Of a DNA stretch of 64,000 nucleotides, positions 19,000 through 42,877 are shown one piece after another. This DNA is from Bacteroidota bacterium (GTDB lineage Bacteria > Bacteroidota > Bacteroidia > NS11-12g > UBA955). The stretch covers positions 186,001-250,000 of the forward strand of contig JAMLHC010000003.1 in NCBI GenBank assembly GCA_023957335.1. The letters are read 5' to 3'. The notes beneath the pieces were generated by a model. That model was given only the letters and a program-made list of their open reading frames with translations, had not been told where the DNA came from and ran no database searches. Position 1 is the stretch's first letter; each line of letters begins with the position of its first letter. The position numbers and the translations under genes were made by a program.

Positions 19000-21900
19000 T
19001 TATCTCACCACCGTAACCGTTCCTGTAAAGAACTGTGTTTCTCCGAAAACGTTGACCACACGCAGGGTGAAGGCATACACTCCGTTCGGCACTTGAACGC
19101 CCTGACTGCTGCCATCCCATGCCTCGTCTGAGCGGCTGTGGAACAACAGTTCGCCCCAGCGGCTGTATACCTTGAAGTCTAATTCAGAGAACCCGCGCAC
19201 AAGGGGTTTGAACGTGTCATTCAAACCGTCTCCGTTGGGAGAGAACGCACTTGGGAAGAATACGCGGTAGTTAGTTTTGATGTAAAGTCGAGAGTCTGAC
19301 GTGTCGCGGCAGCCGTGGCTGCTCACTGCAATCAGCCGAACGTTGTGATAGCCGGTGTCGCTATAAGTTACAATTGGGTTCTCGTCCGTAAACGTGCCAA
19401 AGGGTGCTATGTCCCATTGATATGACACCGCTCCCGTGCTGCGGTTCTGAAAACTCACCAAGGGATTGTCCATATCCGGTTCTTCGGGCTGATAGCCGAA
19501 GTCTGCAAAGGGTTTGGGATAGACTTCTATGGCTTGTCCGCTCACTTGTGCTTGGCAGCCACCTGCGGTTATCAGTGTGAGTAAGGGAATGAAGTGTCCT
19601 GCGTGGGGATATGTGTAATGCAGCGTAGGTGGAATTTCAAACGTGTGGGTGGAGTCTCCGTTGCCAAAGCTGAGGGTAAAACCATATTTGTCAGGATAAT
19701 TGGTTTGTAATGTAAAATCTACAGGAAGCGGCTCGCAGCCTTCGCTTGGAGTGTTTTCTAAAGTTAGTAATTCTGGAACTCTATCAACTTTGATTTCAGC
19801 GGTTGCACTTTCGCTTGAACAGTTATCAGAAAGTGTTGCGCTAAACTTATCAAAGCCTTCTGGAGAAACAGTTTGCGTTAGTCCATTTCCAAGTGGATTT
19901 CCGTTTTTATCAAACCAATTTATTGAATAAGAATTTGGATTTCCGCCTTTTGGATTTGCGGTTAGGGTTGCATTTGGGTCAGCGCAAATTGTTGAGCTTG
20001 AAAGTGTTAAACTGAGTTCAGGTCGGATGATTATTTTCCTCGAAAAAGTATCATTCGGAGAGCTGCAATTATCTCTTAAAACTAAAAAGATTTCTCGGGT
20101 GTTAAATTGTGAATATTGGCTTTCTGAAATTAGCGCTTTGCTATTCAAATCAAGTGTATCAGCGTTTTTGAGTACTTCCAAACTTTCGTCATCTTTTTTG
20201 TGAAGCCAAGTAAATTGATATTGATTTTCAACTCCCCCAAAACCTTGTGCTGTGAGGGAAATTTCCTCGCCTAAACAGATTGTATCCGGTGCTGAAAATT
20301 CAGCTTTGAGTTCCGGAAGAGTATGTAAATTGATTTTTTGAGTATCAGCTAATACTGAGCAATCGTCACTCAAAATTAAAGTCAAAATAGCATCCGGATT
20401 TTTAAAGTCTTTGGAGTTGATTTCAACTGAATCTCCTTTTGAAATTTCCTCATTGTCTAAAAGCCAAGTAAATTCATAGTCTTCTTCAACTCCACCTATT
20501 CCTTTTGCAAAGAATTTTAATTCACTTCCTGAGCAAACGGATGTGTCATTTGCAGGGGCGTAGTCTTGATCGAACATTTGAACGGATAATTTGGGACGGA
20601 TTCGCAACGTGATATCAGCTGTGTCGGAGGGCATGCAGCCGTCTGTCATGACGAGCCGGAGTTGTTGGACATTGTCGCTCGTGCCGGGATTAAATAGCTG
20701 CACGCTGACAACTGCGCTGTCCGAATTGCTGAGGGTCAAGTCCGGTGTGCCTGTCCAACTGTATGTGTAGACGGACGGCAAACCTCCTGTCCCTTTGGCG
20801 ACAAAGGTTAAGGTTTGTCCTGAACAGCCTTTGACTTCGCTTAAAATATTGTCCAAACTGTCCGTTATGTCCGCTAAAAGAGGGGATGTAGGGCGGGCAA
20901 CAATGTATGCCGTATCTTGTAGAGTCGAGCAACCGTCTTCTAATACCAATGCAAAATGTGTTATGGCGGATGTGTCGGGGAAAGTGAACAGAATGGTGTC
21001 TGTCAGGGCGAATGAGTCCGTTTTTAGCTCCTGCCAACTGCTCAAATCATTGGTGTTGTACCATGTCCACCTGAAACCGCTCGTATCACCTTGCGTAAAG
21101 GAAGCGATGAGATTTATTTCCTCTCTCAAACAAATGTTGATTAGACTGTCTGTAATAATTCTTGGGTGGGGACGTACATAGATGCGTTTGTATGCTGTGT
21201 CCGCTTCTCCACAGCCGGAGCTGTCGCTGATTACGATGCGATAAACTGTGTCTTTGTCAGGGATAATAAAGGGGGTTCGGGACGTACTGTCGTCCATGTT
21301 GTATGCCGGAGTCCATTGCCACGCTGTACCGCCAAAGGTTTTTAGCTGAAAACTGTCGCCATAGCAAACCGTTTCTGCTCCGCCCGGGTCAGCTTTATCG
21401 CGGGAGTAAATCAATAAACGTAAGCTGTCTAACTTGTAAAAACTCTGTACGGGAGGGTGGGTGCTTCTTACTCTTATCCTATAATTGCCGGAGCTGGCTA
21501 CTTGGAACAAGGGCAATCTGCCTGTAATAGTGCTGTCTTCGGTGGATTTTATTCGACCAAGTTCTCTCTCCCCGCCTTCGAAGTTGCCGTTCTCATCGCT
21601 CAACTCCGCTATGAAATAATTGGCGGTGTCGTAGTTGCCCATTTTGCTGTAAGGCACTAGGAAAGTATCCCCAGCACAATATGGTCCCGATAGAACTTCT
21701 CCGCGAGTGATGGAGTAGTCGGTGATTTTGGCGAGGAAACCTGAGGTCCGTTGAGAATTATGAGAATTAAGTATGAATGGGTCTAATTCTAACTGTCCGT
21801 TATACGATCCGCAATAAACCAATTCACTACGTGAATTTGGGGACATATCTGTTGCGGCAACACCTGATTTTAGCCAGAGGGCATTGCCAAGGGTATCAAA

Positions 21901-23271
21901 TTTGACAAACATAGCTATTCTAGATTGTGATTGTGCGATCAACGTATCAGCGAGTTCCCCGATTGCAATGTTGTTGTTGTACCCGTATTCAAATTTTGTG
22001 TATATATTCCCCCTAAAGTCTGTTCGGATTACATCTGAATAAATATTTCTGGAAAATGTACTAGAAAGGGATATTTTCTTTTGTGGCATTCTTACCCAGT
22101 CCACCTGCGACAGGCTCATTTTTATAACATAAGGAAATACTGTTGTAGAATTCGGCTGGGGGATATCAGGAGGCAATCCTTTGGTAACATAGTACGACAC
22201 ACCATTTCTTATCAGTGTATCCTCTACATACCCCACCATGTAAATATTCCCTGTGTCAATGGCTATTATATCCGCTATATTATCTTGCTGCTTCAGTTTG
22301 TTATGAAGAAAATCCGCAAACAGCACATTCCCCACCGAATCATAGACCATAAGAAAACCTTTTGCCGTACCATTATTGGGCAAATTCGTACTATACGTCA
22401 CACCGTTAATTTCTCTTGTGCTTTCACTGAATTTAGAAACAACATAAAGGTTGCCGTGCAAATCTGCACGAATTTTTAAGATATGAAACGGCTGACTATT
22501 ACTCGTTTGACTTGTTACAGGTTGTTTTACCCAAATAAGAGAGTCAAAATTGGGCGAGTATTTTAAAAGCAAAGAGGTCATAAAGTTTTCTGAAAATGAT
22601 GTGCCTGCGTTTCGTGTATAAATAGTACCCTCTCTCATAACAAGAGCCAGCATCACATTGTTATCCTTATCTTTTTCCAATAAGCCTGTAAAGTTAAGTG
22701 CCCCAGCGCTGTAAGCATTCACTATTTTCTGATAATAGGTTAGTCTCCCAAGACTGTCGTACTCGGCTATAAAAATCATATCAGTACCCGCCCCGGAAAC
22801 AAGACTGTCATTTGGGCTTAATAGTACCGCAACACTATCGGAATTAGAAGCGTTATACACTCGTCCGTACACTACGATTCTGTTGGAAGTAAGCACACGT
22901 ATGTTAGACAAGTGTAAACTAATTGCGTCACCCTTAGCAACCATTCGTTTGGTATACAGGGTGCGCACCCATTGCACCTCTCCGTCTGTATTTACTTTTG
23001 CTGTAAAACCAAAATTGTGGTGTAGCTGGCTTCCCACTCCTATTTTAAAGGTGTCTATAAAAAACGAATCCCTACATATCCCCACAACATAGGAATTGTC
23101 GTTGCTGTCAATGTCCAGCCCCCATACGGTGTTGTGGGAATTGGCAGAATTTTGCTTTGCCGTAAAAGACTTTGCCCACTCGTGCATTTGGGCGTGGATA
23201 CTGCTACACAATAGCAAGAACAATATGAAAACTATTTTTTTCAAAACAATACAGTAAAGAGAGGAAAACAT
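19000..23271 (-). CDS. Giant T9SS type B surface protein, array copy 1
   Basis: The 1423-residue protein has an export segment (residues 10-28, ending SIHAQ; a TTG at codon 10 gives a start like its paralogues). A propeller-like N-terminal region to about 515 has SBBP-type repeats such as NDNSYVVGICRDSFFIDTF. A linker follows, ITDYSITRGEVLSGPYCAGD, then Ig-like modules (about 640-1200), a PKD-type domain, and a C-terminal CHU_C/gliding domain (FFPSAFSPNGDGLND to the end), the type B signal for T9SS export. It is the last gene of the S74/giant cassette 1. It carries the L-type linker and lacks the REP-derived segment found in copies 2 and 4. Function is unknown; adhesion or surface-fibre assembly is inferred. 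Confidence 0.88.
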   Translation of the reverse strand: MFSSLYCIVLKKIVFILFLLLCSSIHAQMHEWAKSFTAKQNSANSHNTVWGLDIDSNDNSYVVGICRDSFFIDTFKIGVGSQLHHNFGFTAKVNTDGEVQWVRTLYTKRMVAKGDAISLHLSNIRVLTSNRIVVYGRVYNASNSDSVAVLLSPNDSLVSGAGTDMIFIAEYDSLGRLTYYQKIVNAYSAGALNFTGLLEKDKDNNVMLALVMREGTIYTRNAGTSFSENFMTSLLLKYSPNFDSLIWVKQPVTSQTSNSQPFHILKIRADLHGNLYVVSKFSESTREINGVTYSTNLPNNGTAKGFLMVYDSVGNVLFADFLHNKLKQQDNIADIIAIDTGNIYMVGYVEDTLIRNGVSYYVTKGLPPDIPQPNSTTVFPYVIKMSLSQVDWVRMPQKKISLSSTFSRNIYSDVIRTDFRGNIYTKFEYGYNNNIAIGELADTLIAQSQSRIAMFVKFDTLGNALWLKSGVAATDMSPNSRSELVYCGSYNGQLELDPFILNSHNSQRTSGFLAKITDYSITRGEVLSGPYCAGDTFLVPYSKMGNYDTANYFIAELSDENGNFEGGERELGRIKSTEDSTITGRLPLFQVASSGNYRIRVRSTHPPVQSFYKLDSLRLLIYSRDKADPGGAETVCYGDSFQLKTFGGTAWQWTPAYNMDDSTSRTPFIIPDKDTVYRIVISDSSGCGEADTAYKRIYVRPHPRIITDSLINICLREEINLIASFTQGDTSGFRWTWYNTNDLSSWQELKTDSFALTDTILFTFPDTSAITHFALVLEDGCSTLQDTAYIVARPTSPLLADITDSLDNILSEVKGCSGQTLTFVAKGTGGLPSVYTYSWTGTPDLTLSNSDSAVVSVQLFNPGTSDNVQQLRLVMTDGCMPSDTADITLRIRPKLSVQMFDQDYAPANDTSVCSGSELKFFAKGIGGVEEDYEFTWLLDNEEISKGDSVEINSKDFKNPDAILTLILSDDCSVLADTQKINLHTLPELKAEFSAPDTICLGEEISLTAQGFGGVENQYQFTWLHKKDDESLEVLKNADTLDLNSKALISESQYSQFNTREIFLVLRDNCSSPNDTFSRKIIIRPELSLTLSSSTICADPNATLTANPKGGNPNSYSINWFDKNGNPLGNGLTQTVSPEGFDKFSATLSDNCSSESATAEIKVDRVPELLTLENTPSEGCEPLPVDFTLQTNYPDKYGFTLSFGNGDSTHTFEIPPTLHYTYPHAGHFIPLLTLITAGGCQAQVSGQAIEVYPKPFADFGYQPEEPDMDNPLVSFQNRSTGAVSYQWDIAPFGTFTDENPIVTYSDTGYHNVRLIAVSSHGCRDTSDSRLYIKTNYRVFFPSAFSPNGDGLNDTFKPLVRGFSELDFKVYSRWGELLFHSRSDEAWDGSSQGVQVPNGVYAFTLRVVNVFGETQFFTGTVTVVR

Positions 23272-23302
23272 ACTGCTCTCCTCCCAAACACAAGTGATAA
23301 AA

Positions 23303-25093
23303 TTATTTTAGCAAAATCATTTTTAGAGTTTCAATAGTATGCCCATCAATAATTAGAGAGTAAAAGTAAGTCCCTGATGCTAATACTCCCGCAGAAAGGA
23401 CAATATTTCCATTTCCTGCATGAGAAACAGGAAAACTGCCTACTATTCTCCCCTCTGTATTCCGTACCTCAATCTTAGCATTAGTATAGTTCTCTGGCAG
23501 AAAATAACGGATAACAGTTGTTTCAGAAAAAGGATTAGGCTCGTTCTGCTCCAAAGCGGGTTGCTCGGTCAATTTGCCTATCTGTCCTAAACTTCCGTTG
23601 CCACCCTTGCCATTTTCGTTTCCGCTAGGATTAGTGTTGCCCTGCTGCTTGAAAAAAAATGCTTCCAAGGCAGCTATCCTTTTTTCCTGCTGCTCGTTCT
23701 TAACTCTTTCCGCTTCCAAATCGGCTCGCAAAATTTGGTTTTCTGTCTTCAATTCTCCATTTTCAACTTTCAACTCTTCAATTTTAGCATCGTGCTCCTG
23801 TATTCCTTGTGTAAGAAAAGGGATAAAGCCGATGTAGTTCACGGCTCCTTTTCCTCGCCATGTGGCAGTAAATTCAGGTAACACTTTCGAAACATCCTGT
23901 GCCATAAAACCATAAGAAAGCATTGCATTTTCTTTCCCTATGTAGTTATAGGAATAGGCTTGCAGTCGCAATATTCTCCGCCAGTCGTCCAGTTTGGATA
24001 TATTGGTTTTCAGGCTGCGGTCAGATTGAATGAAAACACTCCCTCCTGCATACAAACCACTATCAACTTCTATATCACCTCCCGATACACTGAACCTTGG
24101 ATTTGCAGACCAAGTACCTCCAGTTGGTGTCCAGCCACCACCAGGGTCGCTTTCATCATTTACAATAACCCCTAATGGTGCATTTGTCCCAATCCCCACC
24201 CAGCCGGTATTATCAATAGTCATTCTTCTGGTGCGATGTGTCCAAAACTCCATGTTACTATTTTGATTTTGACGGATTTGGAAAATAGAAGACCCTTTTT
24301 CATAGCCAATCTGTGCCCCTATTGGTGCATGCAATGTTGTCCACCTGATATAATTATCAGTCATAAGCCTTCCTGATGTGTCCCCTTCCAAATGCAGTCT
24401 GTCAAGAGGATTGAGTATTTCTCCTATGCCAACAAACCCAGTCATTCCTTTTAGTATCATAGCTGTTTCATTCCATGTAGATAGGTGTATATCATAAGGC
24501 GCAACTTGTTTGATTTGAAGTGCATTTGAGCTACCGTCCTGACCTATGCAAGCCTCCGACATTGGCGCCATTCCTCCTGCGGGTCTTGTAAACCTCAAAT
24601 AATTAACTCCAATAGGGTCGCTTTCATTAATATGCAGCTTGCCAAGCGGATTTATAGTGTCAATACCTATGCTATGTGTTCCAGGGTTAACGTTAAAAAA
24701 ACTGGTAGCTTGCCAGTCTGTATTGTCCCAAAACAGGGTCTGTCCAAAGGCTAACCCCTGTTGCACGCCAATACCATTCTGCCAAGAGAGATTTCCTATC
24801 GGGTCTGTTGTCAGGTATCGGTTCAGACCAAATGAAAGAGGAAGGTTTTCAAATCTTACTGTTCCATTAACATGCAGGTCTGCAGTAGGTAATATCATAG
24901 GAGGTAAATTAATCCCCACAGGTGCATCTCCCAAAAAGGGTGGGTTTCCTGGCGCAAACAGTGATTGTGCCCCGCCCGTTCGCCAAAAGCCTAACAGCAG
25001 AAACAAGATAATTGCTTTTGTCCATAGAGTCGCAGGCAATGGACCTGCATTGTAAACCGCGTTTAATCTTTGATTTTGTAGTAATTGTTTCAT
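23303..25093 (-). CDS. Tail-fibre-like protein with S74 chaperone and T9SS sorting domains, array copy 1
   Basis: The 596-residue protein begins with the array-wide N-terminus MKQLLQNQRLNAVY, then a hydrophobic export segment (about 26-43, ending GGAQ). Residues 44-304 are fibre-like with repeated collar motifs (VGIG, LDRLHLEGD). A peptidase S74 intramolecular chaperone domain starts at Ser357-Asp and Lys362 (SDRSLK), the Ser/Lys spacing of self-cleaving phage fibres. A coiled coil (about 430-485) and a Gly/Asn linker precede a T9SS type A sorting domain (EQNEPNPFSETTVIRYF to the end). Residues 42-304 are nearly identical to copy 3. The giant gene starts 31 bases after its stop, forming a two-gene unit. 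Confidence 0.9.
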   Translation of the reverse strand: MKQLLQNQRLNAVYNAGPLPATLWTKAIILFLLLGFWRTGGAQSLFAPGNPPFLGDAPVGINLPPMILPTADLHVNGTVRFENLPLSFGLNRYLTTDPIGNLSWQNGIGVQQGLAFGQTLFWDNTDWQATSFFNVNPGTHSIGIDTINPLGKLHINESDPIGVNYLRFTRPAGGMAPMSEACIGQDGSSNALQIKQVAPYDIHLSTWNETAMILKGMTGFVGIGEILNPLDRLHLEGDTSGRLMTDNYIRWTTLHAPIGAQIGYEKGSSIFQIRQNQNSNMEFWTHRTRRMTIDNTGWVGIGTNAPLGVIVNDESDPGGGWTPTGGTWSANPRFSVSGGDIEVDSGLYAGGSVFIQSDRSLKTNISKLDDWRRILRLQAYSYNYIGKENAMLSYGFMAQDVSKVLPEFTATWRGKGAVNYIGFIPFLTQGIQEHDAKIEELKVENGELKTENQILRADLEAERVKNEQQEKRIAALEAFFFKQQGNTNPSGNENGKGGNGSLGQIGKLTEQPALEQNEPNPFSETTVIRYFLPENYTNAKIEVRNTEGRIVGSFPVSHAGNGNIVLSAGVLASGTYFYSLIIDGHTIETLKMILLK

Positions 25094-25117
25094 ATCAGTA
25101 TTTGACTAAGTGAACTT

Positions 25118-25125
25118 CAAAGTTA
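25118..25125 (-). promoter_or_regulatory. Shared cassette promoter, -7 box TAACTTTG, copy 1
   Basis: TAACTTTG on the minus strand, 24 bases before the S74 ATG. The same box and the following GAAGTTCA leader occur before all four cassette starts. The bases further upstream (25158-25180) resemble the end of the S74 fragment at 42751. Confidence 0.55.
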
Positions 25126-25218
25126 ATACTATTTTTTTAATAATAACAAATTACCCTGTTTCTGTTACTATGGGAGTGTGTCTATGCAACAAAATATTTT
25201 GTGATAATAAAACAAGCA

Positions 25219-28200
25219 CTACCGCACCACCGTAACCGTCCCGGTAAAGAACTGTGTTTCTCCGAAGACGTTGACCACACGCAGGGTGAAGGCATACACT
25301 CCGTTCGGTACCGGAACGCCCTGGCTGCTGCCATCCCATGCCTCGTCTGAGCGGCTGTGGAACAACAGTTCGCCCCAGCGGCTGTAAACCTTGAAGTCTA
25401 ATTCCGAGAACCCGCGCACAATGGGTTTGAACATGTCATTCAAGCCGTCTCCGTTGGGAGAGAATGCACTTGGGAAGAAAACGCGGTAGTTCGTTTTGAT
25501 ATAAAGTCGCGAGTCTGACGTGTCACGGCAGCCGTGGCTGCTCACGGCAATCAGCCGAACGTTGTGATAGCCGGTGTCGCTATAAGTTACAACTGGGTTT
25601 TCGTCCGTGAACGTGCCAAAGGGTGTTATGTCCCATTGATATGACACCGCTCCCGTGCTGCGGTTCTGAAAACTCACCAAGGGATTGTCCATGTCCGGTT
25701 CTTCGGGCTGATAGCCGAAGTCCGCAAAGGGTTTGGGATAGACTTCTATGGCTTGTCCGCTCACTTGTGCTTGGCAGCCACCTGCGGTTATCAGTGTGAG
25801 TAAGGGAATGAAGTGTCCTGCGTGGGGATATGTGTAATGCAGCGTAGGTGGAATTTCAAACGTGTGGGTGGAGTCTCCGTTGCCAAAGCTGAGGGTAAAA
25901 CCATATTTGTCAGGATAATTGGTTTGTAATGTAAAATCTACAGGAAGCGGCTCGCAGCCTTCGCTTGGAGTGTTTTCTAAAGTCAGCAATTCCGGAACTC
26001 TATCAACTTTGATTTCAGCGGTTGCATTTTCGCTTGAACAATTGTCTGAAAGTGTTGCGCTAAACCTGTCAAAGCCTTCTGGAATGGCGGTTTGGGTCAA
26101 TCCATTTCCAAGTGAATTTCCATTTTTATCAAACCAATCTATTGAATATGAATTTGGATTTCCGCCTTTTGGATTTGCAGTTAGGGTTGCATTTGGGTCA
26201 GCGCAAATTGTGGAGCTTGAAAGTGTTAAACTGAGTTCAGGTCGGATGATTATTTTCTTTGAAAAAGTATCATTCGGAGAACTGCAATTATCTCTCAAAA
26301 CTAAAAGGATTTCACGGGTGTTAAATTGTGAATATTGGCTTTCTGAAATTAGTGTTTTACTATTCAAATCAAGCGTTTCAGCGTTTTTGAGAACTTCTAG
26401 AGTTCCATCATCTTTTTTGTGAAGCCAAGTGAATTGATATTGATTTTCAATTCCACCTGAACCTTGTGCTGCGAGGGAAATCTCCTCGCCCAAGCAGATT
26501 GTATCTGGTGCTGAAAATTCAGCTTTGAGTTCTGGAAGTGTGTGAAGATTTATCCTTTGTGTATCAGCCAAAATCGAGCAATCGTCTTGTAGAATTAAAG
26601 TTAAAATTGCATCAGGACTTTTAAAGTCCTTGGAGTTGATTTCAACTGAATCTCCTTTTGAAATTTCTTCATCGTCCAAAAGCCAAGTAAATTCATAGTC
26701 TTCCTCTACACCACCCGTTCCATTTGCAAAGAATTTTAATTCACTTCCGGAGCAAACCGAAGTGTCATTCGCGCTCTTTTGAGCAAAATTTAAAATCTGT
26801 GCTTTTAGTGGTTCTCTGATTTTTACTTCAAATGAAATGCTATCTCCTTTTTCCATGCAACCGTTATGAAGAGTAAGAGTTACAAGCAATTTTCTCAATA
26901 GTTCTGACGGTTCGTAATCAGTTAAACTATCCGAATTTCCCTCAGGCAAATGCTGAAATGAGTTCAGCATTACGTCATTGATTGGGTTTAGGATTTTCCA
27001 GTTCCATTGGTATTTTTGTTCTGTTCCGCCTTTTCCATTTGCAGTGAAGTTTAAAAGCTCTTTGAAGCATGCTTCGACTCCGCTCAGCATACCGTTTGTC
27101 CTGGTTAGCAAGGTGTTGCCATAATATAATTCGCTGATTTCCAAAGGTGGAAGTGGTGAAATTACAAATTCTTGCGTGTCACTTTCAGGGCTGCAAATGT
27201 CCTCAACTATGAACCAAAACCTTTGGCTGTCTTGGCTATTGAAAATTGGTTTTATTGTGGTTTTTGTTTCAGAAACATTGCCGCTATCTTGGCTTAAAAT
27301 ATTACCCTTTTCATCAATCCATTTCCACCTAAAACCTTTGCCACTGCCATCAGAAATTTGTGCTGTAATTTCAGCAGAAGTGCTTGGACAAATTGCTGTA
27401 TCTCGTGGAAATACAACAGATTTTGGAACTCTGCGATCGATTTTCAGTTCAATAAAACTGCTGTCAATATATGGCAAACACTCATCTTTTGTTACAAAAG
27501 CAAATTTCCTTGAATCAAAAATACTTTTGTTTAATTGAACGCTGATTGTGTCTGCAAATTTATTCTGACCAGAATTTAAGAAATGAAATTTATCCGAAAC
27601 ATCCACTTCAAACCATTCCCAGCTGTAAGTTGCGCTATCTCCACCAGAAATATTTCCAAATAGTTCAACCAAACTGCCGTCACACTGTAAGCTGTCAAGA
27701 GTCGAAATTTTGCCTTTTATTTTTATTGGTTTTAGGGTTACAACGAACTCAGCTGTGTCTTTTATTACTGAACAATTATCATCCAAAACGATTGCTAATC
27801 TTCGCGTTGCTGTGGTATTATTATATTTGTATAAAAGTGTATCAAGCAAAGCAAATGAATCACGCGCAATCTCGCTCCAGCCTTTGTTTTTAACAATATT
27901 ATACCAAGTCCATTTATAGCCTAAAGTATCGCCATTTCTGAAAGATGCACTCAAGGCTACTTCCTCGTTTAAGCACACTTTGAAACTGTCTGTGATATCA
28001 ACTTTGGGATTATTTCGAATAATAATTCTTTTGAAAGCCGTATCTGGCTCTCCACAACCAGAAGTATCGGAAATCACAATTCTAAAAACAGTATCTTGCA
28101 AAGCCAAAACCTTTGGTGTTCTTGATGTTGAGTCACCCATCAAATAGGCTGGCGACCATTCCCAAACCGTTCCACCATAGGTGTGTAACTGAAAACTATC

Positions 28201-30090: not shown

Positions 30091-30101
30091 ACAAGAAGTT
30101 A

Positions 30102-30143
30102 AAAAAAATATGGCACCATTTATCCTTTCAATATAAAATGGTC
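30102..30143 (-). terminator. Terminator-like hairpin between S74 copy 2 and giant copy 2
   Basis: On the minus strand ACCATTTTAT (30143-30134) pairs with ATAAATGGT (30124-30116), with one bulge, then GCCAT, then eight T (30109-30102). It overlaps the S74 stop codon and sits 12 bases before the giant gene's ATG. It could attenuate read-through from the S74 gene. Confidence 0.45.
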
Positions 30144-31437: not shown

Positions 31438-31675
31438 ATCGGTATTGTTTTAAATGAACTTCAAAGTTAAAACTATTTTTTTTATAAAAACAAACTTATC
31501 AAGTTTATACTATCAGGCGAGTGATGGGTATGCAACAAAATTTTTTGTGATAATAAAACAAGCAACGGTGTTTCGGCTCCGTTTAGACTATCCTTCGACT
31601 ATCCTTAGACTACGCTCAGGACAAGCGCTCAGAACAGGCTTCTCAGCGACCGCGCATTCATAATTCATAATTCAC
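31386..31675. repeat. 290-bp direct repeat, copy A
   Basis: This block matches 37565-37854 at a constant offset of 6179 with one difference I could find (near 31632, A versus G). It covers the first ~17 codons of S74 copy 2, its promoter, and the intergenic region back to the end of giant copy 3. It contains three 11-base tandem units (31586, 31597, 31608; GACTATCCTTC-like) running into a REP-like CTACGCTCAGGACAAGC. A 69-residue frame inside it is identical in both copies only because the DNA is. Confidence 0.9.
31462..31494 (-). promoter_or_regulatory. Shared cassette promoter, copy 2
   Basis: On the minus strand TTTG (31491-31494), a 21-base A/T-rich spacer, then TAACTTTG (31462-31469), 24 bases before the ATG at 31437. 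It is identical in copy 3. Confidence 0.65.
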
Positions 31676-31684
31676 CATTAATAA

Positions 31685-34600: not shown

Positions 34601-35821
34601 CTTGGAACCAGCGGTTAGCCCTGTGCCAAACAAAGTATTGCTAAGATATACACTATCGCCAGTCAACTGCCCTCCAAGGTAAAGATTGTTGTTATCTAGC
34701 AGTAATCCTGCAACAGGACTTAAAAAACCTTGTGATAAACTGTCCTGGCATTTACACCAGACAAGGGAATCCATCTGCTTATTGAGTTTTAACAAGCAGA
34801 AAGATAGTGGATTGGTAAAATTTGTTTTGGATATTTCCTTATGGGAAAGAATTTCAATAGAATCATGGAAAGGTAACCCCATATAAACAGAACCGCTAAA
34901 GGTATCAACATCAAACTTAATTCCTGAATAAGAACTTATGTTGCGTGTTGCATATTTTATGTAAATATAGTTAGCAAGTCTGCCCGCAGTATCAAGCTGA
35001 ATCAAGTAGTAGCCTTTGGGCAGTGTGTCGGAATTGTGAATATACTCTTTGTCAAAATAAGCCGTAAAGTAAATAGAGGAAAGGGTTGCTTTTAAATCTC
35101 TTCTTGCAGTAGCAGAACCAACAATCGAACCATATTGCTTAACCCACAGAAAACTACCGTTTGAATCATAAGCAGCAAGACCATAATTCCAACTGTCAGT
35201 TGCGCTGCATGTTTGGTTACTTCCTGTATATTCCATAATACCTCTAAGAGTATGATAAATATATATCCTCCCTCCAGAATAGTCCATTTTATGGGTTACT
35301 TGGTCTGTTGGGTCAAGCGTTGTACTACCATATTCTTTTGCCCACAAAGGATTTCCGTTTCTATCAAATTTGATAAGGGCATTTCTTCTTCCCGAGTAGC
35401 CTGAAGGATATGAAAGCTGAATATTTGACGAAAAACTAATACTTCCTCCATTGTAGTGAAGCAATAAATAAATATTGCCGACCTCATCGGTTGTAATGTC
35501 AATGGGGGCAATGTTTTGATTTGTATTTACATCTGTTGAGAATACCCACATCAATGAACTGTCGGGTGTTACGCTCGAAAGCATTAAATTAGTTGTTGTA
35601 GCTGTATTCAGGTTCGTGGTTGTAACAGTAGCTCCTTTGAATTGAAAAGAACCCGTATTAGTAAATGAATTGGACAAAACAATGTTTCCGTCAATATTTC
35701 TACACACCACAGGACTCACACTTCGCACTACGTTGTTGATGGAAAATAGCCATTGGGTTTCCTGTGCAGGAACAGAAAAACAGAAAACAAACAAACTCGC
35801 TATGGAGAGGATTTTTTTCAT
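31685..35821 (-). CDS. Giant T9SS type B surface protein, array copy 3
   Basis: The 1378-residue protein has a signal peptide (ending SVPAQ), an N-terminal propeller-like region (to about 478) related to copy 4, the L-type linker GEVLSGPYCAGDTFLVPY as in copy 1, Ig-like modules, a PKD domain and a CHU_C type B sorting domain. From about residue 1133 to the end it departs from the other three: PSEGCQPLPVIFEPKTNYPD replaces the PSEGCEPLPVDF version, and the sorting domain ends KGTVTLIR. The switch corresponds to about 32424 in DNA, after which the other copies remain nearly identical to each other. It follows S74 copy 3 by 58 bases, across a stem-loop with a G8 tract. Function is unknown. Confidence 0.88.
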   Translation of the reverse strand: MKKILSIASLFVFCFSVPAQETQWLFSINNVVRSVSPVVCRNIDGNIVLSNSFTNTGSFQFKGATVTTTNLNTATTTNLMLSSVTPDSSLMWVFSTDVNTNQNIAPIDITTDEVGNIYLLLHYNGGSISFSSNIQLSYPSGYSGRRNALIKFDRNGNPLWAKEYGSTTLDPTDQVTHKMDYSGGRIYIYHTLRGIMEYTGSNQTCSATDSWNYGLAAYDSNGSFLWVKQYGSIVGSATARRDLKATLSSIYFTAYFDKEYIHNSDTLPKGYYLIQLDTAGRLANYIYIKYATRNISSYSGIKFDVDTFSGSVYMGLPFHDSIEILSHKEISKTNFTNPLSFCLLKLNKQMDSLVWCKCQDSLSQGFLSPVAGLLLDNNNLYLGGQLTGDSVYLSNTLFGTGLTAGSKLFIAKADTLGNLLWGFANGNLNVVTSINSMTVDTVGNLLLAGVFVGKVRIFNDSLANNNIAGSFLAKITDYSITRGEVLSGPYCAGDTFLVPYTKMGNYDTANYFIAELSDEKGNFEGGERELGQMKSTQDSTIIGRLPLFQVASSGNYRIRVRSTHPPVQSFYKLDSLRLLIYSRDKADPGPSETLCYGDSFQLHTYGGTAWEWSPAFRMDDSSSRTPWIYLEKDTVFRIVISDSSGCGEPDTAFKQIFIKSNPKIITDRLVNICNNTNITLSAQFKNGDSSAYKWTWYNTEQDFSWQELKSDSFAYFDSLNYIFKSKPVSTNIGLVLEDGCSIVKDTAFVLINLNSPLEVVADLQDTTVCIGEKIHIRAFANGGDSLNYNFKWYFKDSLIGEKQSLEFTPSDYFILEDLQTSISNSLKVFVFDDCMGIDSFVAQITVRAKLEVSVLDEYQKSANDTSVCSGSELKFFANGTGGVEEDYEFTWLLDNEEISKGDSIEINSKDFKNPDAVLILILKDDCSILADTQKINLHTLPELKAEFSAPDTICLGEEIFLTAQGTGGIENQYQFTWLHKKDDGSLEVLKNADTLDLNSKALISESQYSQFNTREIFLVFRDNCSSPNDTFSKKIIIRPELSLTLSSSTICADPNATLTANPKGGNQNSYSINWFDKNGNPLGNGLTQTVSPEGFDKFSATLSDNCSSESATAEIKVDRVPELLTLENTPSEGCQPLPVIFEPKTNYPDKYGFEINFGNNNSENVSEGTSRIDYTYKTAGTFTPSLKITTQNGCEKTIQGTPITIYPKPIADFSYEPEYPDMDNPLVQFKNQSHGAKSYIWTLGTYGDFTADNPEIKYQDSGYHYVRLIAISDKNCSDTTESQIYIKTNYRVFLPSAFSPNGDGLNDDFKPSVRGFSELDFRVYSRWGELIFHSTKDEAWDGTFNGEQMPDGVYAFTLSVINVFGEKQLFKGTVTLIR

Positions 35822-35832
35822 GTTTGTAATTA

Positions 35833-35870: not shown

Positions 35871-35879
35871 TACAAGTGG

Positions 35880-37616
35880 TTATTTAAATAAAATCATACT
35901 TTTAGTATCTACAACTCTGTCGCCAATAATCAGGCTATAGTAGTATGTCCCCGCAGTTAAAGAACCCGCTTTCAAGGTAATGCTGCCTTGTCCGTTGCCC
36001 TGTGCTACAAAACTACCCACTATTTTGCCCTCAATGTTCTTTACCTCAACTCTTACGGTTGCAACTCCTTTGGGAACAAAATAACGGATAACGGTTGTTT
36101 CACTAAAAGGATTAGGCTCGTTCTGCTCCAAAGAAGGAAGTTCGCCCAATGTACCTATTTGTCCAAAGTCGTTGCCAGTTCCTTCGCACTGTTGATTGTA
36201 AATAAACTCTTCCAAAGCAGCTAAACGCCTTTTCAGTTGCTCATTTTCGTTTTCCAAAGTTTCAATTTTTGCATTCGTTTCGGAATTTACAGTTTGGTTC
36301 TGCTCTATGGCGTTCAGCCTGTTCTCATGCTCCTGAATGCCTTGTGTCAAGAAAGGTATAAAGCCGTTGTAGTTTACCAAGTGAAATTTCCCGTTGTGGG
36401 TAACAAGTTCAGGAATGTGCAATTTAACTTCCTGTGCTTTGAAGCCATAAGACATTGTTATTGAGAAATTAAACTCTCCGTTTTCCTTAAACCTGTATGA
36501 GTAAGCAGGAACACTAAGGATTCTTTTCCAGTCAGTGCTTAAACTCTGGAAAGATTCTTTGAGGGTTTCATCAGAAGCCTCAAAGAATGCCCCCGATATG
36601 TGTAAATCACCGTTAAACTCTCCTGTACCATTTGCTGAAAATATTATGGGATTTCCTGTTGGAGTAGCTGTACCTATCTGAGTACCTATAAAACCATATG
36701 GCGCATTAGTTCCAATTCCCACCCAACCAGTATTATCAATGGTCATACGTGCATTGTTATTCGTCCAAAACTCCATGTTACTATTTTGATTTTGACGGAT
36801 TTGAAAAACAGACGACCCTTTTTCATAGCCAATCTGCGCTCCAACTGGTGCATGCAATGTTGTCCACCTGATATAATTATCAGTCATAAGCCTTCCTGAT
36901 GTGTCTCCTTCCAAATGCAGCCTGTCAAGAGGATTGAGTATTTCTCCTATGCCAACATACCCAGTCATCCCTTTTAGTATCATGGCTGTTTCATTCCATG
37001 TAGATAAGTGTATGTCATAAGGCGCAACCTGTTTGATTTGCAGTGCATTTGAGCTTCCGTCCTGACCTATGCAAGCCTCCGACATTGGTGCCATTCCTCC
37101 TGCGGGTCTTGTAAATCTCAAATAATTAACACCAATAGGGTCACTTTCATTAATATGTAGCTTGCCAAGCGGATTTATAGTGTCAATACCTATGCTATGT
37201 GCTCCAGGGTTAACGTTAAAGAAACTGGTAGCTTGCCAGTCTGTATTGTCCCAAAATAGGGTCTGTCCAAAGGCAAAACCCTGTTGCACTCCAATACCGT
37301 TCTGCCAAGAGAGATTTCCTGTCGGGTCTGTTGTCAGGTATCGGTTCCGACCAAATGAAGGAGGCAGGTTTTCAAACCTTACTGTTCCATTAACATGAAG
37401 GTCTGCGGTAGGTAATATCATAGGAGGTAAATTAATCCCCACAGGTGCATCTCCCAAAAAGGGTGGGTTTCCTGGCGCAAACAGTGATTGCGCCTCACCA
37501 GTTCGAAAAAAACCTAACATCAGAAATAAGAGAATTGCTCTTGCCCATAGAGTCGCAGACAATGGCTTTGCCTTGTAAACCGCGTTTAATCTTTGATTTT
37601 GTAGTAATTGTTTCAT
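35880..37616 (-). CDS. Tail-fibre-like protein with S74 chaperone and T9SS sorting domains, array copy 3
   Basis: The 578-residue protein has the same order as copy 1: invariant N-terminus, export segment ending GEAQ, fibre region, S74 domain (SDETLK, Ser348/Lys353), coiled coil (about 430-470) and a T9SS type A sorting domain (EQNEPNPFSETTVIRYF). Residues 42-304 differ from copy 1 at about a dozen sites, but the S74 domain and C-terminus diverge strongly. The first ~17 codons and upstream DNA match copy 2 instead. It is therefore a mosaic. It is expected to be secreted and to trimerise, and it forms a unit with giant copy 3. Confidence 0.9.
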   Translation of the reverse strand: MKQLLQNQRLNAVYKAKPLSATLWARAILLFLMLGFFRTGEAQSLFAPGNPPFLGDAPVGINLPPMILPTADLHVNGTVRFENLPPSFGRNRYLTTDPTGNLSWQNGIGVQQGFAFGQTLFWDNTDWQATSFFNVNPGAHSIGIDTINPLGKLHINESDPIGVNYLRFTRPAGGMAPMSEACIGQDGSSNALQIKQVAPYDIHLSTWNETAMILKGMTGYVGIGEILNPLDRLHLEGDTSGRLMTDNYIRWTTLHAPVGAQIGYEKGSSVFQIRQNQNSNMEFWTNNNARMTIDNTGWVGIGTNAPYGFIGTQIGTATPTGNPIIFSANGTGEFNGDLHISGAFFEASDETLKESFQSLSTDWKRILSVPAYSYRFKENGEFNFSITMSYGFKAQEVKLHIPELVTHNGKFHLVNYNGFIPFLTQGIQEHENRLNAIEQNQTVNSETNAKIETLENENEQLKRRLAALEEFIYNQQCEGTGNDFGQIGTLGELPSLEQNEPNPFSETTVIRYFVPKGVATVRVEVKNIEGKIVGSFVAQGNGQGSITLKAGSLTAGTYYYSLIIGDRVVDTKSMILFK

Positions 37617-37854
37617 ATCGGTATTGTTTTAAATGAACTTCAAAGTTAAAACTATTTTTTTTATAAAAACAAACTTATCAAGTTTATACTATCAGGCGAG
37701 TGATGGGTATGCAACAAAATTTTTTGTGATAATAAAACAAGCAACGGTGTTTCGGCTCCGTTTAGACTATCCTTCGACTATCCTTAGACTACGCTCAGGA
37801 CAAGCGCTCAGGACAGGCTTCTCAGCGACCGCGCATTCATAATTCATAATTCAC
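37565..37854. repeat. 290-bp direct repeat, copy B
   Basis: Matches 31386-31675 with one observed base difference. It spans the 5' end of S74 copy 3, its promoter and the spacer to giant copy 4, ending 10 bases before the stop of giant copy 4. Confidence 0.9.
37641..37673 (-). promoter_or_regulatory. Shared cassette promoter, copy 3
   Basis: Identical to the copy 2 promoter: TTTG (37670-37673), 21 bases, TAACTTTG (37641-37648), 24 bases before ATG 37616. Confidence 0.65.
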
Positions 37855-37864
37855 AATTACAAAA

Positions 37865-40800
37865 CTACCGCACCACCGTAACCGTTCCGGTAAAGAACTG
37901 TGTTTCTCCGAAAACGTTGACCACACGCAGGGTGAAGGCATACACTCCGTCCGGCACTTGAAGACCATTACTGCTGCCATCCCATGCCTCGTCTGAGCGG
38001 CTGTGGAACAGCAGTTCGCCCCAGCGGCTATATACCTTGAAGTCTAATTCAGAGAACTCGCGCACAATGGGTTTGAACGTGTCATTCAAGCCGTCTCCGT
38101 TGGGAGAGAAAGCACTTGGGAAGAATACGCGGTAGTTCGTTTTGATATAAAGTCGCGAGTCTGACGTGTCGCGGCAGCCGTGGCTGCTCACGGCAATCAG
38201 CCGTACGCTGTGATAGCCCGAATCGGTATAAGTTACAATCGGGTTCTCATCCGTGAACGTGCCAAAGGGTGCTATGTCCCATTGATATGACACCGCTCCC
38301 GTGCTGCGGTTCTGAAAACTCACCAAGGGATTGTCCATGTCCGGTTCTTCGGGTTGATAGCCGAAGTCCGCAAAGGGTTTGGGATAGATGTCTATGGCTT
38401 GTCCGCTCACTTGGGCTTGGCAGCCACCTGCGGTGATGAGCGTGAGCAAGGGAATGAAGTGTCCTGCGTGGGGATATGTGTAATGCAGCGTAGGTGGAAT
38501 TTCAAACGTGTGGGTGGAGTCTCCGTTGCCAAAGCTGAGTGTGAAACCATATTTGTCAGGGTAATTGGTTTGTAATGTAAAATCTACAGGAAGCGGCTCG
38601 CAGCCTTCGCTTGGAGTATTTTCTAAGGTCAGCAATTCAGGAACTCTATCCACTTTTATTTCGGCAGTTGTATTTTCGCTTGAACAGTTATCAGAAAGTG
38701 TTGCGCTAAACTTATCAAAGCCTTCTGGAGAAACAGTTTGCGTTAGTCCGTTTCCAAGTGGATTTCCGTTTTTGTCAAACCAATTTATTGAATAAAAATT
38801 TGGATTTCCGCCTTTTGGATTTGCGGTTAAAATTGCATTTGGGTCAGCGCAAATTGTTGAACTTGAAAGTGTTAAACTGAGTTCAGGTCGGATGATTATT
38901 TTCCTCGAAAAAGTATCATTCGGAGAGCTGCAATTATCTCTTAAAACTAAAAAGATTTCTCGGGTGTTGAATTGTGAATATTGGCTTTCTGAAATAAGTG
39001 ATTTGCTATTCAAATCAAGTGTATCAGCATTTTTTAGCACTTCCATAGTTCCGTCATCTTTTTTGTGAAGCCAAGTAAATTGATATTGTTTTGAAATCCC
39101 GCCAGAGCCTTGTGCTGTCAAGGAAATTTCCTCGCCTAAGCAGATCGTATCCGGTGCTGAAAACTCAGCTTTGAGTTCCGGAAGTGTATGCAAATTGATT
39201 GTTTGGGTGTCAGCCAAAACGGAGCAATTGTCTTTTAAAATCAAGATCAGAACTGCATCCGGATTTTTAAAGTCTTTGGAGTTGATTTCAACTGAATCTC
39301 CTTTTGAAATTTCCTCATCGTCTAAAAGCCAAGTAAATTCATAATCTTCCTCCACTTCGCCAGTTCCGTATGCAAAGAATTTCAATTCACTGCCAGAGCA
39401 AACAGATGTGTCGTTTGCGCTTTTTTGAGCAAAATTTAAAATCTGTGCTTTAAGTGGTTCTCTTATTATTACTTCAAATGAAACACTGTCTCCTTTTGCC
39501 ATGCAACCGTCTTGAAGAGTAAGGGTTACAAGGAGTTTTCTCAATAATTCGGAGGGCTCGTAATCAGTTAAACTATCCGAATTTCCCTCAGGCAAATGCT
39601 GAAACAAGTTCAGCATTACGTTGTTGTCGGGGTTGAAGATTTTCCAGTTCCATTGGTAGTTTTGTTCTGTTCCGCCTTTTCCATTTGCAGTGAAGTTGAG
39701 GTGTGCTCCAAAACATGCTTCGACTCCGCTCAGCATCCCGTTAGTCCCAGTTAGCAAGGTGCTGCCGGAATACAATTCGTTGATTTCCAAAGGATGAAGC
39801 GGTGAAATAACGAATTTCTGTGTGTCACATTCAGGGCTGCAAATGTCTTCAACTATAAACCAAAATCTCTGACTATCTTGGTTGTTGAAAATCGGTTTAA
39901 TTATTGTTTTTGTCTCAGAAACATTGCCACTATCTTGGCTTAAAATATTGCCTTTTTCATCAATCCATTTCCACCTAAAACCCTTGCCACTACCATCAGA
40001 AATCTGTGCTGTAATTTCAGCAGAAGTGCTTGGACAGACTGCCGTATCTCGAGGAAATACAATAGCTTTAGGAACTCTGCGGTCAATTTTTAGTTCTATA
40101 AAACTACTGTCAATATATGGAAGACATTCATCTTTTGTTACAAAAGCAAATTTCCGAGAATCAAAAATACTTTTATCAAGCTGAACGCCAATTGTGTCAG
40201 CAAATTTCCCTTTTCCAGAATCCAGAAAAACAGGGAGATTTTGCTCGTCAATTTCAAACCATTCCCAGCTATAAGTTGCACTATCGCCACCAGAAATATT
40301 TCCAAATAGCTCAACTAAACTGCCGTCACACTGTAAGCTATCCAAAGTCGAAATTTTGCCTTTTGCTCGACTTGGATGAAGGATTATCGTATAAAAAGCG
40401 GTGTCTTCTTTTATCGAACAACCGTCATTTAAGACCAAAGCAATATTCCTTGTCGAGGTGTTGTGGGTGTAGTAAACTGTGTCAACAAAAGCGAAAGAAT
40501 CACTCTTGATTTCACGCCAAATATTTGCTCTTGGAATATTATACCAAGTCCAGTTATAACCGGCACTGTCACCATCTTGAAAGGATGCATCAAGCGCAAA
40601 ATTTTCGTTTAGGCAAGAGTAAAAAGTATCTGCATTTGAGACGATTTTAGGGTTGTTTCTGATAAAAATCCTTTTGAAAGCGGTATCAGGTTCTCCGCAA
40701 CCAGAAGTGTCTGAAATTACAATCTTGAAAATGGTATCTTTCATTGCAAGAATTGTCGGAGTTCTTGAAGTGGAATCGTCCATTAAATACTTGGGCGACC

Positions 40801-42589
40801 ACTCCCAAACAGTTCCGCCATAAGTGTGCAACTGGAAACTATCTCCCAAACAAACGGTTTCTGGAGGACCGGGGTCAGCTTTATCCATGGAATAAATTAA
40901 CAATCGCAAGCTGTCTCTTTTATAAAAACTCTGAACAGGCGGACTGGTGCTGATTACACGGATTCTATAATTTGCTGAACTGGAAACTCGGAATAATGGC
41001 AACGCACCCCGAATGGTACTATCTTCAGTTGCTTGTAGGCGACCGAGTTCCCTGACTTTACTTGTATCATCAAAGTTTCCATTTTCATCACTTAGTTGAG
41101 CTATGAACCAATTGTCGGGATTGTACCTTCCCATTTTTGTATATGGAATGTCCATGCTGTCGCCTGCACAATAGGGTCCTGCCGAAACCTCTCCACGAGT
41201 GATGGAGTAGTCGGTGATTTTGGCTATAAAAGATTCTGCAATACCTTTATTTAAAAGTGAGTCATTAAATAATCTGATTTTATTAAAGAATATTCCAGCT
41301 ACATAAAAATTTCCCTTTTTATCAGAAGCTATACTCGAAACTTGAATGCTCACGCCAAAACCACCATCAGTAAAACCCCATAAAACATTCCCTTTAGTAT
41401 CAAATTTAAGAATACATAGGTCAAAGGCAGTAGAGCGATATACAAGAGGTATTCCTTTGATATTAACCGTGCCACCTTGCAAATTTCCTCCAATGTAAAA
41501 TGTTCCATCCCCCCCGTCTTCAACACCACCTCCTGGTGAGAATACTGATGGAGAAGTTGCCGTAGTATGAGCGTGCCATTTTAATTTGTTGTTTTGGTTA
41601 AACACGATTGAAGTAGGATAATTATAGTTGTCTGTTAGTATGACTGAATCATTAAAGAGTAAACTGTCCATTGCATTAAAAGCCCATGCAATATTTGCCA
41701 GACTTGCACCTGAGTCCAATAAAGTAAATCTGTTGTAGGTAATATTCGTATTATTGACCACATAATTTTTACTTAACAATAAACCATTGCTATCAATATT
41801 GCAAATGTAAATTCCACTAAAAACCGTGTCGTTACCGATGATACTTTTATTTTCAACGCTTCCATTAAAATAAATGCTGTTGTGATTAAGAACTCCAATG
41901 TCGGAATAATTGCTAACATTAAGACCATCAAAAGTATTTGCATATAGAAAAGCCCCTGATGTATCGTAACACGATAGTATAGCACCTTTTGAAACAGTAA
42001 AAGTATCTACTGCGTCTTCAAAACTGACATTACAGTTATCTGTATCATAATAGCTTGTAAAGTATAACCTGTCTGAAAATATTTTTATCCCACGTGTCCA
42101 ATACACATCCATATCAGTTCTGCCAAATTCTCTTTTCCAGATTAATGTGCCGTTAGGAGAATATTTTAAGATTGCATGCCTATAATTAGCACCACTTGAA
42201 ACTAAACTTATTGAAGGCGACAACGGAATGGGTCCTCCAAAATATTGAACCAAGATATATATATTGTTGTTATTGTCAGTATTCACTCGTAGAGGTTTTA
42301 TCGTACTACTTGCAGGCACATTAGTACTGATTAGCCATAACAGGGAATCTTTGGGGTTGTATTTCATTAATATGAGGTTGTCTTGTCCTGCATTATTTAA
42401 AACCGAAAATCCCCTGTAAGTGAAAGCAACAGAAGAAGATGTTGCCATTATTATATCTCCATTGCTGTCACATGTGATATAGGGAATACTGCTTTTGTTT
42501 CCTCCCAAACCGTTAATCCACTCCGTTTCTTGTGCGGAACCAGAAAGAATAGAAATGAAAAGTGATAATATAGAAAGGAGTTTTTTCAA
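37865..42589 (-). CDS. Giant T9SS type B surface protein, array copy 4
   Basis: The 1574-residue protein has a signal peptide (ending SGSAQ), a propeller-like N-terminus (to about 460, related to copy 3), the S-type linker GEVSAGPYCAGDSMDIPY shared with copy 2, the same extra Ig-like modules and REP-derived segment as copy 2, then the PKD and CHU_C type B region nearly identical to copies 1 and 2. It thus joins a copy-3-like front to a copy-2-like middle. The S74 gene that should precede it is reduced to a 23-codon remnant 32 bases upstream, so this copy lacks its own intact partner. Function is unknown. Confidence 0.88.
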   Translation of the reverse strand: MKKLLSILSLFISILSGSAQETEWINGLGGNKSSIPYITCDSNGDIIMATSSSVAFTYRGFSVLNNAGQDNLILMKYNPKDSLLWLISTNVPASSTIKPLRVNTDNNNNIYILVQYFGGPIPLSPSISLVSSGANYRHAILKYSPNGTLIWKREFGRTDMDVYWTRGIKIFSDRLYFTSYYDTDNCNVSFEDAVDTFTVSKGAILSCYDTSGAFLYANTFDGLNVSNYSDIGVLNHNSIYFNGSVENKSIIGNDTVFSGIYICNIDSNGLLLSKNYVVNNTNITYNRFTLLDSGASLANIAWAFNAMDSLLFNDSVILTDNYNYPTSIVFNQNNKLKWHAHTTATSPSVFSPGGGVEDGGDGTFYIGGNLQGGTVNIKGIPLVYRSTAFDLCILKFDTKGNVLWGFTDGGFGVSIQVSSIASDKKGNFYVAGIFFNKIRLFNDSLLNKGIAESFIAKITDYSITRGEVSAGPYCAGDSMDIPYTKMGRYNPDNWFIAQLSDENGNFDDTSKVRELGRLQATEDSTIRGALPLFRVSSSANYRIRVISTSPPVQSFYKRDSLRLLIYSMDKADPGPPETVCLGDSFQLHTYGGTVWEWSPKYLMDDSTSRTPTILAMKDTIFKIVISDTSGCGEPDTAFKRIFIRNNPKIVSNADTFYSCLNENFALDASFQDGDSAGYNWTWYNIPRANIWREIKSDSFAFVDTVYYTHNTSTRNIALVLNDGCSIKEDTAFYTIILHPSRAKGKISTLDSLQCDGSLVELFGNISGGDSATYSWEWFEIDEQNLPVFLDSGKGKFADTIGVQLDKSIFDSRKFAFVTKDECLPYIDSSFIELKIDRRVPKAIVFPRDTAVCPSTSAEITAQISDGSGKGFRWKWIDEKGNILSQDSGNVSETKTIIKPIFNNQDSQRFWFIVEDICSPECDTQKFVISPLHPLEINELYSGSTLLTGTNGMLSGVEACFGAHLNFTANGKGGTEQNYQWNWKIFNPDNNVMLNLFQHLPEGNSDSLTDYEPSELLRKLLVTLTLQDGCMAKGDSVSFEVIIREPLKAQILNFAQKSANDTSVCSGSELKFFAYGTGEVEEDYEFTWLLDDEEISKGDSVEINSKDFKNPDAVLILILKDNCSVLADTQTINLHTLPELKAEFSAPDTICLGEEISLTAQGSGGISKQYQFTWLHKKDDGTMEVLKNADTLDLNSKSLISESQYSQFNTREIFLVLRDNCSSPNDTFSRKIIIRPELSLTLSSSTICADPNAILTANPKGGNPNFYSINWFDKNGNPLGNGLTQTVSPEGFDKFSATLSDNCSSENTTAEIKVDRVPELLTLENTPSEGCEPLPVDFTLQTNYPDKYGFTLSFGNGDSTHTFEIPPTLHYTYPHAGHFIPLLTLITAGGCQAQVSGQAIDIYPKPFADFGYQPEEPDMDNPLVSFQNRSTGAVSYQWDIAPFGTFTDENPIVTYTDSGYHSVRLIAVSSHGCRDTSDSRLYIKTNYRVFFPSAFSPNGDGLNDTFKPIVREFSELDFKVYSRWGELLFHSRSDEAWDGSSNGLQVPDGVYAFTLRVVNVFGETQFFTGTVTVVR
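39596..39736 (-). repeat. Two REP-like palindromes inside the coding sequence of giant copy 4
   Basis: ATGCTGAA (39596-39603) and TTCAGCAT (39609-39616) form perfect arms around ACAAG. The second element is at 39715-39736. They are read in frame as VMLNLFQHLPEG and GMLSGVEACF. Spacing between the two elements equals that in copy 2 (119 bases start to start). Confidence 0.7.
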
Positions 42590-42621
42590 AACTTCAGCAG
42601 AAACAGGTTGAATACTTTAGC

Positions 42622-42693
42622 TCATACAGCCTTTGGTAAGGGTATTGTCTTGTAAACCGCACTTACTCTTTGATATTGTAATAATTGTTTCAT
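42622..42693 (-). pseudogene. 5' remnant of a fourth S74 fibre gene
   Basis: A 23-codon frame from ATG 42693 reads MKQLLQYQRVSAVYKT and stops at TGA 42622-42624 after PLPKAV. The first 14 residues match the invariant N-terminus of the three intact S74 proteins with three changes. The normal promoter box lies 24 bases upstream. The rest of the gene is missing and giant copy 4 starts 32 bases later. It might still act as a short leader peptide. Confidence 0.75.
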
Positions 42694-42717
42694 ATCAGTA
42701 TTGGGTTAAGTGAACTT

Positions 42718-42725
42718 CAAAGTTA
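42718..42725 (-). promoter_or_regulatory. Shared cassette promoter, -7 box TAACTTTG, copy 4
   Basis: The fourth occurrence of TAACTTTG with the GAAGTTCA leader, 24 bases before ATG 42693. It would drive the remnant and giant copy 4. Confidence 0.55.
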
Positions 42726-42750
42726 ATAATATTTTTTTAATAATAACTAA

Positions 42751-42877
42751 TCATCCTGTTTCTGTTACAAGTGGGAGTGGGATAGGGTCAAAAGGAGCAT
42801 CTCCGAGCATCAACACTGACTGCTCCAATCCAGCTCGCCATGCTCCTAACACGAAGAATAAAACAATGACTTTTGTC
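42751..42877 (-). pseudogene. Internal fragment of an S74 fibre gene (export-segment region)
   Basis: Read on the minus strand, TKVIVLFFVLGAWRAGLEQS and then VLMLGDAPFDPIPLP match residues 25-60 of S74 copy 2, with an in-frame stop at 42751-42753. The fragment lies upstream of the cassette promoter and out of order relative to the 5' remnant at 42622, so a partial duplication or deletion has scrambled a former gene. The remaining 42878-42970 holds nothing I recognise. Confidence 0.75.

Follow-up and report, generated by a model that had tools for sequence, protein, structure and literature searches.

Tandem pairs of S74-domain and giant CHU_C protein genes in a Bacteroidota genome: a mosaic family of putative surface proteins with candidate repeat switches

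We analyzed a window of 64,000 nucleotides (positions 186,001-250,000, forward strand, of contig JAMLHC010000003.1 in the Bacteroidota bacterium assembly GCA_023957335.1). The minus strand of this window holds, at positions 19000-42894, three intact pairs of genes, a fourth unit in which a giant gene is accompanied by the remnant of its partner, and a relic of one further partner gene. An intact pair consists of a gene for an S74-domain protein with a type A signal of the type IX secretion system (T9SS) and a gene for a giant protein with a CHU_C (type B) signal. As judged from the sequence, it is safe to say that these genes belong to a mosaic family of co-directional type A and type B T9SS gene pairs, which are headed by one promoter and leader and in part appear to be switched by repeats. 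We think it likely that the family is one of variable surface-protein pairs. The best reading, toward which we lean, is that the pairs are T9SS surface proteins transcribed together, and that their family is mosaic and in part phase-variable. The features of the array are as follows.

25108..25131, minus: unit 1 promoter box, containing TAACTTTG; the ATG lies 13 bp downstream of the 20-bp core
23303..25093, minus: unit 1 S74 fibre-like gene, 596 aa, with type A sorting domain; S74 domain at 23870-24025
19000..23271, minus: unit 1 giant, 1423 aa, with beta-propeller, GMID immunoglobulin (Ig)-like pair, Ig/PKD stalk and CHU_C
31452..31475, minus: unit 2 promoter box
30142..31437, minus: unit 2 S74 fibre-like gene, 431 aa, with a shorter shaft; S74 domain at 30685-30858
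25219..30090, minus: unit 2 giant, 1623 aa
37631..37654, minus: unit 3 promoter box
35880..37616, minus: unit 3 S74 fibre-like gene, 578 aa; S74 domain at 36402-36575
31685..35821, minus: unit 3 giant, 1378 aa
42708..42731, minus: unit 4 promoter box, intact, as is the leader
42622..42693 (about), minus: unit 4 S74 remnant of 23 codons, the leader MKQLLQYQRVSAVYKTIPLPKAV and then a stop; the gene body is gone
37865..42589, minus: unit 4 giant, 1574 aa, with a TTG start
42751..42894, minus: relic from the signal-peptide region of a fifth S74 gene; over 112 nt it shares 81% identity with unit 2

A preliminary description, made from the DNA letters, had reported the four giants and the three S74 genes on the minus strand, the same promoter box in each of the four units, and the decay of the S74 gene of unit 4. 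The genes lie where it had placed them, and their domains are confirmed by Pfam and NCBIfam. The box is near-identical in each unit; the window has 4 copies of it, where shuffles give an expectation of 0. The unit 4 S74 gene is indeed reduced to its 23-codon remnant, and since a second S74 relic lies upstream of this remnant, five or more S74 genes must at one time have been present in the array.

The motif TAACTTTG in the box conforms to the -7 element of Bacteroidota, TAnnTTTG. In the 2.77-Mb host genome, the 20-bp box together with the start of the leader (MKQLLQNQ; common start MKQLLQN) occurs exactly six times, that is, in the four array units and at two places elsewhere. A cassette is laid out as box, leader, type A gene (the remnant in unit 4), and then a type B CHU_C gene within about 60 bp. 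The two copies outside the array head closely similar pairs, at about 154390-159376 of C1 (L231) and about 74010-78954 of C2 (L232). Each of them consists of a type A gene, encoding a protein other than the S74 fibre, and a type B gene 9 bp further on. A match to the box at C4 with three mismatches was dismissed because it is within chance (the reverse control gave 3).

Between the leader and the signal peptide of both distant cassettes lies a tract of alternating AC, 41 nt long in C1 (at about 159256-159295) and 39 nt in C2 (at about 78837-78874), corresponding to (AC)19-20. Tracts of (AC)12 or longer occur in the host genome at these two leaders only. As assembled, the leader frame stops after 39 codons in C1 and 32 codons in C2; with one dinucleotide less in C1, or one more in C2, the frames are open for 830 and 822 codons, respectively. 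From these features we regard the two distant pairs as candidates for phase variation. That two distant cassettes with (AC)n tracts share the promoter and leader of the array goes beyond the preliminary description.

Repeat tracts are also present in a second family (f2). Its S74 genes have 8-bp tandem repeats, GGCGTTCA and GCAGTTCA, in their leaders; like the AC tracts, these stand after the leader ATG and before the signal peptide. These sites are at the 5' ends of the S74 genes at L080:9386 (minus), L082:7602 (plus), L083:9110 (minus) and L121:6836 (minus). L080 has 12 perfect copies, L082 about 4 and L083 about 7; these three are out of frame, and L077 is in frame.

The units of the array are mosaic. 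The S74 shafts of units 1 and 3 are 87% identical. The propellers of the giants are at most 35% identical between any two units, while the GMID parts group unit 1 with unit 3 (84%) and unit 2 with unit 4 (86%), and over the last 500 residues units 1, 2 and 4 share 93-95% identity with one another and 77-79% with unit 3. Synonymous divergence jumps from 0.13-0.30 to about 0.78 within the S74 gene, and falls from saturation to 0.15 within the giant. Judging from these comparisons, the discordance of modules and the abrupt steps in divergence are most plainly explained by gene conversion or recombination between units. The preliminary description had regarded the array as a reservoir of variants, and the mosaic structure fits this idea. 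In the S74 shaft, the proportion of nonsynonymous differences (pN) is 0.01-0.07 and that of synonymous differences (pS) is 0.13-0.30, which points to purifying selection on the shaft. Two spacers, 31510-31684 between units 2 and 3 and 37690-37864 between units 3 and 4, are 98% identical and carry short repeats of the CCTGTCCTGAGCG type as well as 11-bp and 7-bp tandem repeats. The giants of units 2 and 4 (25219-30090 and 37865-42589) contain an in-frame stretch translating as VMLN.FQHLPEGNSD, which resembles what we presume to be the translation of a common Bacteroidota palindromic repeat.

All three S74 proteins contain PF13884 (S74), at 47.0, 42.4 and 33.0 bits against the Pfam cut-off of 22, and all three carry the type A signal TIGR04183, at 25.8-27.9 bits against the NCBIfam cut-off of 23; PF18962 scores 22.4-26.4 bits, just under its Pfam cut-off of 27. 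The signal peptide, judged by eye, is a hydrophobic segment following the long leader. The order of parts is a beta-rich shaft, which is long and differs in length among units, the S74 domain with the motif SDxxxK, a long predicted helix, and the type A domain. A structural model gives one long helix at 424-484, with low confidence (3 input sequences; mean predicted local distance difference test score, pLDDT, 37.8, too low to support a fold search). With a profile of the S74 parts, the solved S74 domains of phage fibres and MYRF are matched. SDxxxK, which holds a Ser-Lys dyad, is kept in the three proteins of the window and in every paired S74 relative examined. Its spacing is that of S911/K916 in endoNF and S587/K592 in MyRF, and according to the MyRF structure paper the dyad cleaves only as a trimer (PMC8326128). 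The host genome has another S74 gene at C3:136130-136924, with an in-frame TAA ahead of the type A domain and no neighbouring giant.

The four giants all exceed the cut-offs for CHU_C (44.7-49.8 bits against 27) and TIGR04131 (42.6-50.2 bits against 35). Their first 450 residues or so are predicted to fold as a beta-propeller, with CylK as the best Foldseek match (E 5e-13, mean pLDDT 59), which supports the propeller head proposed in the preliminary description. Behind the propeller follow an Ig-like pair, which we here name GMID, the Ig/PKD stalk, and CHU_C. The host genome possesses the T9SS, as seen from a full-length SprA (2431 bits), and has two PorP/SprF genes, both on other contigs. By analogy with Flavobacterium johnsoniae, in which orphan type B substrates use shared PorP/SprF shuttles (PMC12618676), these two distant proteins could serve the type B signals of the giants.

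Relatives of the giants were found with a GMID profile, and giants were present in 28 of 108 genomes of the order. We inspected the gene upstream of 61 related giants. It was an intact S74 gene in 14 and an S74 remnant in 3 (unit 4, L079 and L121), a gene for a small Cys-rich protein in 24, and neither in 13; the remaining 7 lie at a contig edge. L079 and L121 might be taken for solo giants, but this was rejected because internally deleted S74 remnants lie upstream of them. S74 pairs occur in the host genome, in UBA6161 (L030), which is a different genus of this family, and in f2, where five genomes have them, some in tandem. The S74 gene lies upstream of the giant at a very small gap, at times overlapping it, and this order is conserved in the two families. 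Near the UBA6161 pair, at L030:4161-6287, lies a regulator with kinase-like neighbours. In some arrays of the genomes G042 and G047, S74 and small-protein cassettes alternate. The upstream box of the small-protein cassettes also stands before the S74 cassette at L075:8679 in G042, and all 12 exact matches to this type of box in the fetched loci run into the first gene of a cassette. On the tree of the giants, partner types are clustered and have nevertheless switched several times; 3 changes are counted when S74 and small-protein states only are considered.

These results bear on the pairing itself. The preliminary description had treated the S74 gene and the giant as one system and had proposed a search for S74 genes with type A signals upstream of giants elsewhere. 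Such genes were found in UBA6161 and f2, so that the two are neighbours in two families. As a strict rule, however, S74-giant pairing is rejected, because most related giants have another partner or none, and the S74 partner is evidently not obligatory.

The small partners, which we call CDW proteins, are about 130-170 aa long, with a signal peptide and a few invariant Cys residues; they are secreted and undescribed. They matched no Pfam family and had no convincing match in PDB. Their genes stand upstream of giants at L075, L077 and L122-L160 and diverge fast. When copies from the second family are compared, pN is 0.13 in the signal part, which is conserved, and 0.47 in the mature part, which is not. 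A profile of the small partner found further copies, most of which, on inspection, lay directly before a gene for a large secreted protein, even one that lacks GMID. In the host genome itself, a 178-aa Cys-rich secreted protein is encoded at C1:702379 (L028:4959-8240), 6 bp before a 912-aa CHU_C protein; the promoter box is not present at this pair. Genes resembling LuxR-type response regulators adjoin cassettes upstream at L126, L158, L160, L074 and L075.

The copy number of the array is not an artefact of assembly, a concern which the preliminary description had raised. The host genome is assembled in 7 contigs and is 99.95% complete, the synonymous sites of the units are saturated outside the converted tracts, and a sister genome of the same genus has an empty site. 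The neighbours are syntenic on both sides in this sister genome, and only 3 bp separate its uppP from its pnuC. Thus, in comparison with one same-genus genome, the array is lineage-specific at this chromosomal place, through gain in the one genome or loss in the other. The sister genome holds one related giant on a different contig, at the contig edge, where the upstream gene would lie beyond the contig. An origin from a prophage or phage tail was rejected, because the neighbours (uppP, ftsX, pnuC) are housekeeping genes; no phage tail genes were present among the neighbours examined around the array.

We propose the following mechanism. Both proteins of a pair would be exported through the T9SS. 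Outside the cell, the S74 protein may trimerise through the S74 domain and the putative coiled coil, and it probably cuts itself, releasing the shaft from the part that carries the type A signal. The giant, held by its type B signal and a shared PorP/SprF protein, would display a variable propeller on a conserved Ig/PKD stalk. Recombination among copies would yield new heads, and slippage at the tracts would turn single cassettes on or off; the copies of the array, which have no tract, look fixed in the on state. Together, the pair may vary the targets of adhesion, or recognition by phages and grazers. If self-cleavage parts the shaft from the type A signal, the shaft needs another holder or is shed, and the co-expressed giant is the obvious candidate for this holder. 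The least certain step, and also the most specific one, is that the giant would bind the freed fibre directly. We offer a putative physical complex of fibre and giant tentatively, as somewhat unlikely. It is unlikely that the pairs represent a new class of surface organelle, in which a self-cleaving S74 trimer fibre, freed from its T9SS signal, is passed to a co-expressed giant propeller protein for display, and in which a promoter-leader cassette system exchanges partners, be they a fibre, a small Cys-rich protein or another type A protein, and switches them by slippage.

Independent action of the two proteins is almost as likely, given the discordant modules, the loss of S74 from unit 4, and the large number of giants that have no S74. 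The proteins would then be co-regulated, physically separate adhesins, one of the S74 fibre type and one of the propeller type, which share an operon merely through common control, and we give this explanation a substantial chance, short of even. It agrees with the exchange of partners (S74, small Cys-rich, unrelated type A) behind the same promoter, with the discordance of nearest neighbours between the modules of S74 proteins and those of their giant partners, and with the retention of the giant in unit 4 after the loss of S74. It agrees less well with a gene order that is conserved across two families with tiny gaps and some overlaps, or with the clustering of S74 and small-protein partner types on the giants' tree. 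The discordance and the state of unit 4 weigh also against the reading that we favour, and so do several other points. No PorP/SprF gene lies beside the array, the giants inspected outside the order have neither an S74 nor a small Cys-rich partner, and the array's own S74 genes contain no switch tract. Furthermore, the lengths of the (AC)n tracts come from a single assembly, and sequencing error could account for them.

Ordinary tandem duplication of a surface operon, followed by drift and gene conversion and having no role as a reservoir or switch, seems to us quite unlikely. Conversion tracts and a decayed copy are typical of any tandem array, and this array is without a repeat tract. Such duplication, however, leaves unexplained why the same promoter and leader stand on two distant, unrelated pairs with the only (AC)n tracts of the genome, and why independent repeat tracts are found at the same place in another family. 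It is improbable that the S74 protein serves the giant as a helper in assembly or secretion, to be cut and shed afterwards, rather than as a fibre for display. The retention of the S74 dyad and the position of the S74 gene, always upstream and close, would suit a helper. The shafts, long and of varying length between units, would not, and S74 partners are missing from many members of the giants' family, so that a giant as such does not require S74 to be secreted or folded.

The mosaic, partly phase-variable family of pairs which we favour combines parts of known kinds, namely variable surface adhesins, T9SS pairs and S74 fibres; we did not find their combination described in the open-access literature. 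The S74 proteins resemble the S74/intramolecular chaperone autocleavage (ICA) proteins of phage tail fibres and MYRF (PDB 6f45, 8jov, 7dc3, 3gud) in the S74 domain, the spacing of the Ser-Lys dyad and the beta-rich shaft before S74; the long helix predicted after it may correspond to their coiled coil. Unlike the phage fibres, they are encoded by a bacterial surface gene, carry a T9SS type A domain after S74, and are paired with a giant. The giants resemble T9SS type B adhesins with PorP/SprF (SprB, PG1035, Fjoh_3952; PMC9143113, PMC12618676) in their size, their richness in Ig/PKD domains and their CHU_C/TIGR04131 signal, and the two PorP/SprF genes of the genome lie elsewhere, as with the orphan type B substrates of F. 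johnsoniae. In contrast to type B and PorP/SprF pairs, the partner here is an upstream type A or small Cys-rich protein. The tracts are like those of simple sequence repeat contingency loci (Helicobacter pylori SabA, Neisseria; PMC2715451, PMC5084427) in that a non-triplet repeat stands at the start of the frame of a surface protein. They differ in lying within a shared leader peptide ahead of T9SS-secreted pairs in Bacteroidota, an arrangement for which we found no report in the open-access literature.

The analysis connects the S74 domains of phage fibres, the pairing of T9SS type A and type B proteins, and switching by repeat slippage in Bacteroidota, a link that we did not find made in the open-access literature. 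If the proposed reading is true, it would provide a testable answer to the role of S74 proteins with T9SS signals and would give a name to a family of partners, the small Cys-rich CDW proteins, whose genes immediately precede those of giant surface proteins. Surface heads that can be switched in this way would bear on how cells attach, resist phages and vary between strains.

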